51,472 nucleotides of DNA, taken from NCBI GenBank assembly GCA_943323545.2, contig CALPIE020000004.1:1-51472 (forward strand), in the 5' to 3' direction. The position numbers were made by a program, and so were the translations under genes. The notes below the pieces were generated by a model. It saw only the letters and a program-made list of their open reading frames with translations. It ran no database searches and was not told the origin of the DNA. The DNA is from Bifidobacterium breve. Lineage in GTDB: Bacteria > Bacteroidota > Bacteroidia > Flavobacteriales > Flavobacteriaceae. Below are positions 35,675 through 48,096 of the stretch, one piece after another (the first letter of the stretch is position 1; each line of letters starts with the position of its first letter).

Positions 35675-35772
35675 TTTAAATGGAATTTAGGATTTGGGAT
35701 TTTGAAACACTAACCTTCAAATCTTATTATTTGTTCTGTTAGAACTTTGTTTTTATACAATTCATATACTTT

Positions 35773-35880
35773 TTAGCCCCGATTGCAGTGCAAATCTTTT
35801 TAATACCGATATTTATCGGTGTTAAAAAATTGAAGCGAAAGCGGGAATTGCCATTCCGAAAAAGCCCAAGCCTTTCGCTT
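35773..35880. repeat. Structured dispersed-type intergenic element (possible conserved RNA)
   Basis: The gap between mnmG and ybeY contains AGCCCCGATTGCAGTG..., then a strong hairpin (arms 35797-35811 and 35814-35828, near-perfect 15 base pairs with a 2-base loop) and GAAGCGAAAGCGGG..., followed by ...GCCTTTCGCTT, partly self-complementary. The pattern GCCCCGATTGCAGTG ... GAAGCGAAAGCGGG recurs in intergenic regions of Flavobacteriia. It resembles a widespread structured repeat; whether it is transcribed is not known. Confidence 0.5.
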
Positions 35881-46606: not shown

Positions 46607-46677
46607 GGCGTCGTGGCCGAGCGGCTAGGCTGGGCTCTGCAAAAGCTCCTACTCCGGTTCGAATCCGGACGATGCCT
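46607..46677 (+). tRNA. tRNA-Cys (anticodon GCA)
   Basis: 71 bases including discriminator U. The acceptor stem GGCGTCG pairs with CGATGCC (one G-U). Anticodon loop CTGCAAA gives GCA, with stem GGGCT/AGCTC. The T arm TCCGG/CCGGA with TTCGAAT loop is standard. The discriminator is U73 as expected for Cys. CCA is not encoded, so it is added enzymatically. A hairpin terminator follows at once (46682-46710). Its 3' end is repeated downstream. Confidence 0.96.
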
Positions 46678-47296
46678 CTAAAACCTTCAAGGAAACTTGG
46701 AGGTTTTTTTATGGATAATTTTTAGAAAAAATTTATTAAAGTAATGTTCGAATCCGGACGATGCCTCTAAAACCTTCAAGCAAACTTGGAGGTTTTTTTA
46801 TGGATAATTTTTAGAAAAAATTTATTAAAGTAATGTTCGAATCCGGACGATGCCTCTAAAACCTTCAAGCAAACTTGGAGGTTTTTTTTATAGATAATTT
46901 TTAGAAAAAATTTATTAAAGTAATGTTCGAATCCGGACGATGCCTCTAAAACCTTCAAGGACAAGAGCGTAGCGAACTGGCGAAGCAAACTTGGAGGTTT
47001 TTTTATGTATAATTTTTAAGAAAAATTAATTAAAGTTATGTTCGAATCCAGAAGACGCCTCTAAAACCTTCAAGGGCAAGAGCGTAGCGAAATGGCGAAG
47101 CAAACTTGGAGGTTTTTTATGTATAATTTTTAGGAAAAATTAATTAAAGTTATGTTCGAATCCAGACGATGCCTCTAAAACCTTCAAGGGCAAGAGCGTA
47201 GCGAACTGGCGAAGCAAACTTGGAGGTTTTTTTATGGTTGTCATTCTGACGAAGGAAGAATCTAAAAAATTAATTAAAGTAATGTTGAATCCGGAC
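46657..47296 (+). repeat. Tandem array of tRNA-Cys 3'-end plus terminator units
   Basis: The 21-base 3' part of the tRNA (from GTTCGAATCC to the discriminator) and the downstream terminator and AT-rich spacer repeat six times, with starts at 46657, 46746, 46835, 46925, 47040 and 47154, and a degenerate seventh start at 47284. Unit lengths: 89, 89, 90, 115, 114, 130. Units 1-3 are nearly identical. Units 4-6 carry a 26-base longer hairpin loop (begins GACAAGAGCGTAGCG in unit 4) and more changes, and unit 6 also carries a GTCATTCTGACG repeat piece. Copies beyond the first lack the 5' part of the tRNA. An antisense reading frame across them is a consequence of the repeat and not a gene. Confidence 0.95.
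46682..46710 (+). terminator. Terminator of tRNA-Cys (first copy in array)
   Basis: AACCTTCAAG pairs with CTTGGAGGTT (one G-U) around GAAA, followed by seven T including the stem end. The same hairpin is present in each later unit, with loop CAAA or a longer one. Confidence 0.88.
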
Positions 47297-47325
47297 TAAG
47301 CTTTGAAAATAAACTTCTCTTTCTT

Positions 47326-47398
47326 TTGTCATTCCGAGGAACGAGGAATCTCATCAAGTGATTCAGATTATGTGATTCCTTGTTCCTCAGAATTACAA
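47326..47398. repeat. Palindromic element of the GTCATTCCGAGGAACGAGGAATC type
   Basis: Arms of 25 bases (47326-47350 and 47374-47398) are reverse complements with three mismatches and surround a 23-base loop. A partial copy of a related sequence is at 47239-47262 in the array. It lies just past the LysE stop (minus strand) and could stop transcription. The sequence looks like a dispersed flavobacterial element. Confidence 0.6.
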
Positions 47399-47412: not shown

Positions 47413-48096
47413 CTAATTCTTTTTCTCTAACTTTTCAAAAGCGGTATTTACAATTTGCTTTTCTTTTGGAAACAACCCTTGTGTCAACAAAAAGACTCCA
47501 GATAAAATAAGAACTACACTGATGGTTTTTTTAATTAAAATAATGTTTTTAGGATTCAGCTTATTTCTTAATTGTTTTGCTAATAGTATTTTAAAAACAT
47601 CGGTAACTAAATATGAAAGTATTAAAGTCGTAAAAAAAGTAATCATTCGAGTAGCTTTTAACTCGAGTTGGGGACCAACAGTTATTAATACAGCCAACCA
47701 AAATCCCAATACACCAATATTGATAAAGTTTAAGAAGAAACCTTTAATAAATAAACTAAGATAATTATTTTTTGCAAGTTCTATTGGATCTTCTGGGTCA
47801 ATATTTTTGGATGCTTTCTTATTTTGAACAAAAGTAATAATACCATAAGTAAGCATTATTAATCCACCAAATATAAATAAAGCAGGTTCGTCTTTTAAAC
47901 TTTGTATCAAACGATAACTACTAAAATAAGCAATAATAATAAAAACGATATCAGCAAATACAACTCCAAAATCGAGCATCATTGCGGCTCTAAATCCTTT
48001 TACTACACTGGTTTCTAGTAAAACAAAAAAGACGGGGCCAATCATAAAACTGAGAAAAAACCCAAGTGGAATCGCTGTAATAATGTCGTTGAACAT
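47413..48096 (-). CDS. LysE family transporter
   Basis: 227 residues with six hydrophobic segments (~5-28, 38-60, 68-88, ~110-135, 145-170, ~180-205). The N-terminal IPLGFFLSFMIGPVFFVLLETSVVKGFRAAM (G-P motif) is typical of the LysE/RhtB superfamily. It is an inner membrane exporter for amino acids or related compounds; the substrate is unknown. The C-terminal tail is charged. It is the gene nearest the tRNA-Cys array, on the other strand. Confidence 0.9.
   Translation of the reverse strand: MFNDIITAIPLGFFLSFMIGPVFFVLLETSVVKGFRAAMMLDFGVVFADIVFIIIAYFSSYRLIQSLKDEPALFIFGGLIMLTYGIITFVQNKKASKNIDPEDPIELAKNNYLSLFIKGFFLNFINIGVLGFWLAVLITVGPQLELKATRMITFFTTLILSYLVTDVFKILLAKQLRNKLNPKNIILIKKTISVVLILSGVFLLTQGLFPKEKQIVNTAFEKLEKKN

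Follow-up and report, generated by a model that had tools for sequence, protein, structure and literature searches.

Bacterial mobile DNA has a preference for stable-RNA genes as insertion sites, and the mobile elements that we know of there measure kilobases and come with an integrase. A classical attP, the attachment site of such an element, needs a left half-site beside its core. Tandem repetition of a tRNA gene end is seen in the tyrT/tyrV repeats of E. coli (tpr, rttR/rtT RNA), where, as at the locus studied here, tandem units that each carry a tRNA 3' end lie right behind an intact tRNA. The tyrT unit is 178 bases long, a length with which the copies in NC_000913.3 are consistent. There the units carry AATCCTTCCCCCACCACCA, the final 19 bases of tRNA-Tyr, which start inside the T loop; this upholds tyrT as the precedent named by an earlier reading of the present DNA that was made from the letters alone (the sequence-only reading). 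How integration can copy a gene end is set out in three papers: integrase targets are pieces that run from the T or the anticodon loop to the gene end (PMC4383910, PMC1762012), partial tRNA genes arise from integration (PMC9897764), and a copy reaching from a hairpin loop to the gene end corresponds to what an integrase requires for the tRNA to stay intact (PMC4383910, PMC1762012, PMC9897764).

Anatomy of the array behind tRNA-Cys

The window, by which we mean the whole stretch of 51,472 nucleotides that was analysed, holds an intact tRNA-Cys (gca) gene at 46607..46678 on the plus strand (the strand of every array feature given below), as called by ARAGORN with Rfam in agreement. Pieces of its 3' end begin at 46657 (the gene's own), 46746, 46835, 46925, 47040, 47154 and 47284 (decayed). 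We thus count six units, the gene's own copy and five extra ones, and then a decayed seventh start: unit 0, the gene's own, with tRNA 3' piece, terminator and AT element (46657..46745, 89 bases); unit 1 (46746..46834, 89 bases, 99% identity to unit 0); unit 2 (46835..46924, 90 bases, 97% identity); unit 3 (46925..47039, 115 bases); unit 4 (47040..47153, 114 bases); unit 5 (47154..47283, about 129 bases); and the seventh piece (GTTGAATCCGGACTA..., 47284..47300). TRF reports two arrays here, one with an 89-base period at 46657-46959 (score 583) and one with a 115-base period at 46867-47236 (score 647).

The sequence-only reading had described a tandem array of the tRNA-Cys 3' end, its terminator and an AT-rich spacer repeated six times after the tRNA, and ARAGORN, Rfam, TRF and the starts of the pieces bear out both the array and the number of units; the first unit, however, is the gene itself, so that five are extra, and the repeated tRNA end measures 22 bases (46657-46678, tRNA nt 51-72) and not 21. 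Its further account of three near-identical units of 89-90 bases, three longer and more diverged ones, a decayed seventh start (the piece at 47284) and a similarity to the tRNA that falls with distance agrees with the identities to unit 0, which run 0.99, 0.97, 0.73, 0.70 and 0.62 from unit 1 to unit 5. Units 3-5 owe their greater length to a terminator-loop insertion, AAGAGCGTAGCGAACTGGCGAAG, which has three copies in the window and none in shuffles. Each unit carries only the 3' half of the T arm, with AT-rich sequence in place of the 5' T-stem half (TCCGG). A T-arm hairpin therefore cannot form, and the T-arm-bearing hairpins that had been proposed for the units are not supported.

The terminator-like hairpin of tRNA-Cys (46683..46708, first T's included) is repeated at 46772-46797, 46861-46886, 46951-47002, 47066-47117 and 47180-47231; a single hairpin, at 46858-46885, passed the terminator rule of the prediction tool, and an Rfam search of the window matched no family to the array. 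What had been taken for a spacer is indeed AT-rich, but it is not a plain spacer: it contains a conserved element of about 26 bases that recurs at other RNA genes. This AT element occupies 46716..46741 in unit 0 (TAATTTTTAGAAAAAATTTATTAAAG), 46805..46830 in unit 1, 46895..46920 in unit 2, 47010..47035 in unit 3 (TAATTTTTAAGAAAAATTAATTAAAG) and 47124..47149 in unit 4. Half of the AT spacer of unit 5 is swapped for a GTCATTC...GAATCT repeat (47240-47263), which takes the place of the left half of the element, and the right half, AAAAAATTAATTAAAG, is retained at 47264. A second dispersed repeat of the GTCATTC...GAATCT kind lies in the window at 47328-47351, and at two loci elsewhere (L284 and L302) a similar repeat displaces the left half of the AT element.

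Two subfamilies can be distinguished in the array, units 0-2 on the one hand and units 4-5, with the terminator-loop insertion and an altered T-loop piece, on the other. Unit 3 joins a T-loop piece of the first type to the insertion and AT variant of the unit 4 type, and looks like a chimera. The copy number is that of the assembly, a MAG of 220 contigs. A relative (L357) has at least 12 such units, with an IS3-type element within, on a single 3.67 Mb contig, so assembly error does not account for arrays of this kind as a class. In the window, a convergent transporter gene on the minus strand (47413..48096), presumably of the LysE type, marks the limit of the array. Between 46679 and 47413 we found no ORF for an integrase or recombinase; the sole ORF of at least 60 codons that starts in the array has 70 codons and lies within the repeats.

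The AT element and copied ends of stable-RNA genes

With tRNA, terminator and spacer as the query, 370 of 398 same-genus genomes matched at E<=1e-12, mostly with the tRNA alone as the sure part. We searched 84,980 species genomes for pairs of tRNA-Cys T-loop pieces at a spacing of 70-100 bases, and this pattern returned 92 stretches, 88 of them with tRNA-Cys present. F. hydatis (L041) and F. flabelliforme (L083) are among the species with arrays. All 92 stretches are labelled Flavobacterium, Flavobacteriaceae or Flavobacteriia save four records: a '[Flexibacter] sp.', an 'uncultured Bacteroidetes' MAG, and MAGs labelled Sphingobacterium and Rhizobium. The last two (L043, Sphingobacterium thalpophilum; L063, Rhizobium sp.) have Flavobacterium-type tRNA-Cys arrays and are likely mislabelled or contaminated bins. 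Units in the Flavobacteriaceae measure about 65-140 bases and most end in the common AT element. At one locus (L386, in G357) an IS200-like transposase gene, with an HUH motif seen by eye, lies directly behind the tRNA-Cys terminator and ahead of the array.

Two sets of 30 Flavobacterium genomes, picked by running number, supplied 57 tRNA-Cys loci, 54 of them with at least 150 bases downstream. The tRNA's own end is detectably copied in 30 of these 54, the first copy starting (as a BLAST start) at nt 50-53 in 21, at nt 32-35 in four, and at nt 45, 49, 55 or 56 in five. Element and copy tend to go together: both occur in 26 loci and neither in 19, with the AT element only in five and the copy only in four (Fisher p 1.2e-6, kinship ignored). 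Sister genera have the same AT element after the tRNA-Cys terminator, and there the copied piece begins in the anticodon loop, not in the T loop. From array to array the AT part remains recognisable, whereas the terminators are of at least two quite different kinds. Taken at tRNA-Cys alone, the association of element and copy could be plain common descent, which counts against reading it as insertion. One ancient partial tandem duplication at tRNA-Cys in an ancestor of the Flavobacteriaceae, reshaped since only by replication slippage and unequal exchange and with the AT element as its ancestral spacer, would account for arrays with the same element in several genera, for the chimera-like unit 3, and for the within-array likeness and copy-number turnover described below. 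We nevertheless consider such a history unlikely, because the same element at tRNA-Leu, -Ala, -Ser and 5S genes, with copies of those genes' own ends, would be left unexplained, as would an occupied and empty pair of tRNA-Ser sites.

The exact AT element has 62 matches in 44 of the 398 same-genus genomes (the window's genome included), whereas the reversed pattern has none. Every one of the 62 lies at the end of a stable-RNA gene, 27 at the 3' end of tRNA-Cys, 32 at the 5' end of tRNA-Leu, one at the 3' end of tRNA-Ala and two at 5S rRNA, where L387 and L388, on contigs that end before the tRNA-Leu, were assigned through tRNA-Leu pieces and L343/L351 through the 5S piece; kinship among the genomes makes these counts non-independent. 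When one mismatch is allowed, 104 of 106 rows are at an RNA gene (40 genomes; reversed control 1) and a tRNA-Ser site emerges (L350), while the two rows away from RNA genes, in G280 and G089, look like chance. At up to two mismatches, four genomes gave 21 matches, one of them (in G392) away from any known array, and the reversed control gave two; this threshold is therefore too loose for single hits. Across the family (299 genomes), the exact element less one base has 17 matches in 11 genomes and 8 of 236 genera, with none for the control. Five of the 17 are in the window's own genome (two in this array, two at tRNA-Leu, one at 5S), and all 12 outside it are behind tRNA-Cys.

Beyond the window array, the element occurs in the same genome twice on the 5' side of tRNA-Leu(caa) (L008) and once, at a contig start, between repeats of the 3' part of 5S rRNA (L193). 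The 5S identity of L193, where Rfam makes no 5S call, rests on its likeness to L372, a 5S site confirmed with Rfam 5S and LSU matches. Matches to Flavo-1 RNA (RF01705) were seen at 35771-35852 of the window, at 401-481 of L193 and at 165-253 of L351, two of the three being near 5S-derived repeats.

Read as TAATTTTTAGAAAAAATTAATTAAA[G/T], the element keeps one orientation at these unrelated genes: to the left stands an RNA-gene end, and the right side mostly bears a partial copy of that end, about 3-10 bases away. This right-hand copy starts within or next to a hairpin loop. At tRNA-Cys, -Ala and -Ser sites it spans the T loop (or anticodon loop) to the 3' end, at tRNA-Leu sites it is nt 1-12, reaching the D loop, and at 5S sites it begins at CCGAACAGAGAAG, a position that we take to be loop C. 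Often the variant copied is that of the neighbouring gene, as with CACCACCCAAGC, CACCACTCGAGC and CGCCATCCGGGC, which stand beside tRNA-Leu genes with exactly those ends. Quantitatively, the tRNA-Cys piece lies within 34 bases of 118 of 130 Cys-side elements (<=3 errors, 49 loci; 43/45, 15/18 and 60/67 by set) as against 169 of 1470 control stretches (57/540, 40/300 and 72/630), some of which are inside tRNAs or arrays. The tRNA-Leu 5' end lies within 30 bases of 38 of 39 Leu-side elements at up to four errors (control 180/1040) and of 30 of 39 at up to one, L387 and L388 being compared to the default tRNA-Leu end. Where an element has no piece, it is mostly array-terminal or the piece is heavily altered. 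The AT element itself is an imperfect dyad (AATTTTT...AAAAATT), and the length of the flanking repeat varies among the Cys, Leu, Ser and 5S sites.

Could the units be kept because they do something? Rows of terminators, or RNA made from them, might shield the convergent neighbour or act as small RNAs, with a functional AT element. Consistent with this, the AT part is more alike between first units of different arrays than the terminator part (identity 0.78 vs 0.67). Terminators of extra units fold more weakly than that of unit 0 (-10.0 vs -13.8 kcal/mol) but far more strongly than shuffled sequence (-2.4), and of 62 named loci that extend at least 2.5 kb downstream, 61 have a convergent relative of the transporter gene behind the array, within 1.5 kb of tRNA-Cys in 59 and at 3.6 and 6.5 kb in two, and one lacks it. 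Such selection seems quite improbable to us all the same: the AT element is absent near tRNA-Cys in 23 of the 54 sampled loci, far units decay, and the array at tRNA-Leu(taa) sits within the tRNA-Gly/tRNA-Leu spacer, antisense to tRNA-Leu, and tRNA-Leu arrays weaken the terminator role, since those of their units that were inspected by eye have no terminator. No host function is needed for the array.

Gene-end copies are also seen apart from the AT element. Partial self-copies without it lie downstream of tRNA-Pro, -Thr, -Met, -Val and -Leu(caa) in the window's genome (L166, L172, L173, L169, L008), and the repeat at tRNA-Pro, a unit of about 160 bases, includes the terminator. A survey of loci among the matches listed, with 20 stretches for each relative, counted downstream self-copies at 1/31 tRNAs in G358, 2/30 in G010, 4/35 in G392 and 5/15 in the window's genome (tRNA-Cys included), and upstream self-copies at 0/31, 0/30, 2/35 and 1/18 respectively, with a non-self control of 11/464. 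A TCCCGA...TCGGGA palindrome, in some cases imperfect, lies in or near the T loop or 5S stretch of non-functional Cys, Thr, Met and 5S copies (L023, L025-L027, L308, L311, L172, L173, L193, L372) and is absent from the window; the E. coli tyrT repeats likewise have a long insert in the copied T loop. The tRNA-Thr and tRNA-Met copies (L172, L173) share GGACGAGAAG with GGATGAGAAG of the tyrT units (L414), a likeness that may be chance.

Turnover of units and probable gain at tRNA-Ser

Units located through AT and T-loop motifs were compared by alignment. Identity between non-first units is 0.86 within an array (200 pairs) and 0.67 between arrays (11428 pairs), and for 106 of 153 non-first units the closest unit is found in their own genome; over the initial 15 bases the copies reach 0.95, but those are the very bases through which the units were found. 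Among 34 locus pairs with at least 94% upstream identity, which are not independent and include some genomes entered twice, the AT copy number differs in 24. On these comparisons, copy number turns over fast.

The falling similarity in the window had been read as growth at the tRNA side, and a comparison of the locus among relatives had been proposed for the order of divergence. Across 21 arrays with at least three extra units, identity to the first unit over distance falls in 15, rises in five and is flat in one (sign test p 0.04), and with the last unit dropped the balance is 7 vs 5 across 12 arrays. The far unit is least like the first in 13 of the 21 arrays, so that far-end decay is common; a consistent gradient is not what the relatives present. 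Individual units tell the same story, 83 of 127 being nearer a sibling unit, 33 nearer the tRNA's own unit and 11 equal, and polar growth does not hold as a rule. Rather, the far end of an array decays and inner units amplify among themselves, with the neat gradient of the window as one outcome of this process.

A difference in occupancy between close relatives is found at tRNA-Ser. In the genome G047, tRNA-Ser is separated from the following gene by an AT element and a T-loop piece, whereas in its nearest checked relative, G039 (99% upstream and 96% downstream identity), the site is empty and the gene comes straight after tRNA-Ser. The sites of G025, G063 and G013 are empty too, with the next gene within a few bases, and among the 14 genomes compared the AT element is in G047 only, with an AT-like stretch in G145 and a T-loop-like fragment in G000. 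A gain of the element in G047 is the simplest reading of this distribution. The copied piece there has 13 matching bases and then diverges, though the flanks are nearly unchanged, and this imperfection speaks against a faithful recent duplication. With pieces that start at T or anticodon loops, this presence/absence pair lends substance to the idea, raised in the sequence-only reading, of attachment-like events at tRNA ends. We had considered the tRNA-Ala site (L347) as a second occupied/empty pair and dropped it, as the tRNA itself differs between G039 and G047.

Origin of the units and comparison with known systems

Copied pieces that span the T or anticodon loop to the gene end resemble integrase targets as PMC4383910 and PMC1762012 give them, and integration is known to give partial tRNA genes (PMC9897764). 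The arrays might accordingly be scars of ordinary tRNA-targeting integrative elements (phages, ICEs), since lost, with displaced gene ends remaining. We find this improbable. Judged by distance, 59 of 62 loci lack an island in the interval from array to neighbour; unit spacing is regular, at about 90 bases; the same AT element stands beside different genes; and no attP turned up in the viral, phage or plasmid collections. By exact patterns or blastn, viral contigs contained neither the 19-base tRNA piece nor the AT element with T-loop piece (one 17-base and three AT matches were all without tRNA), and the collections searched gave no plasmid match and no phage match spanning the tRNA piece. 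A Microviridae match (E 0.01, 34 bases) was considered as attP and taken as chance. The tRNA-Leu-side query matched 106 phage records, with tRNA-Leu named in 5 of 20 among the matches listed.

We favour the reading that the AT element with its gene-end copy is likely a very small mobile element. For the window itself, it is about an even call that the element inserted at the tRNA-Cys end with a copy of that end and was then multiplied through recombination between copies. Element and copy would arrive in one insertion that leaves the gene whole, much as an integrative element enters a tRNA gene, and a recombinase supplied in trans would perform it; later expansion and loss would follow from RecA-type exchange or slippage between units, and after an exchange the tRNA would keep an intact 3' end where the participating unit carries one. 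It is the combination of loop-to-end copying, a constant element, a fixed orientation and new sites that makes us favour a minimal unit inserted by a trans-acting enzyme, although the observations would also suit template switching at hairpin loops or an HUH-type enzyme. Against insertion stand the copies of tRNA-Pro, -Thr and -Met without an AT element in the window's genome, by which the element is not the sole route to such copies, and the search of array and collections, which found no recombinase gene in the array, no attP and, on the AT-rich left side of the units, no left half-site.

More tentatively, we propose a gene-free, ultra-short unit specialised for the ends of stable-RNA genes, with insertion guided by hairpin loops, end copying from the loop outward, by which the gene is kept whole, and tandem growth, which we regard as possible rather than probable. 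If this is true, a place behind essential RNA genes would have sheltered such a unit and let it survive throughout a bacterial family. With its AT element of about 26 bases and its copy of the local gene end, present at five kinds of RNA gene and in several genera of one family, it would be smaller than any such element that we know of, and the presence/absence pairs offer material for studying the insertion reaction.

How, then, does the unit compare with what has been described? Our literature searches, with most subscription journals outside their reach, showed no paper on the Flavobacterium arrays. REP/BIME palindromes and MITEs, like the AT element, are dispersed intergenic repeats of very small size that contain no genes. 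What sets the AT element apart from both is that nearly all its sites are ends of stable-RNA genes and that a gene-end copy mostly goes with it. As for terminal repeats and target duplications, what was observed is the imperfect dyad of the element and flanking repeats of varying length, with none seen that is clearly defined or of short fixed size. The attR fragments of tDNA islands share with the present loci an intact gene and a partial copy from hairpin loop to gene end, but islands have kilobases between the copies, whereas here there are tens of bases, tandem runs, a common AT element and no integrated element in sight. The E. coli tyrT repeats share the principle, although beyond the tRNA piece the sequences are unalike by eye: tyrT has long units with a long T-loop insertion in the copy and no AT element that we could see, while the Flavobacteriaceae units are found beside several RNA genes, at the 5' as well as the 3' end. 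If the latter are mobile, tRNA-end repeats such as those of tyrT could belong to a wider process.
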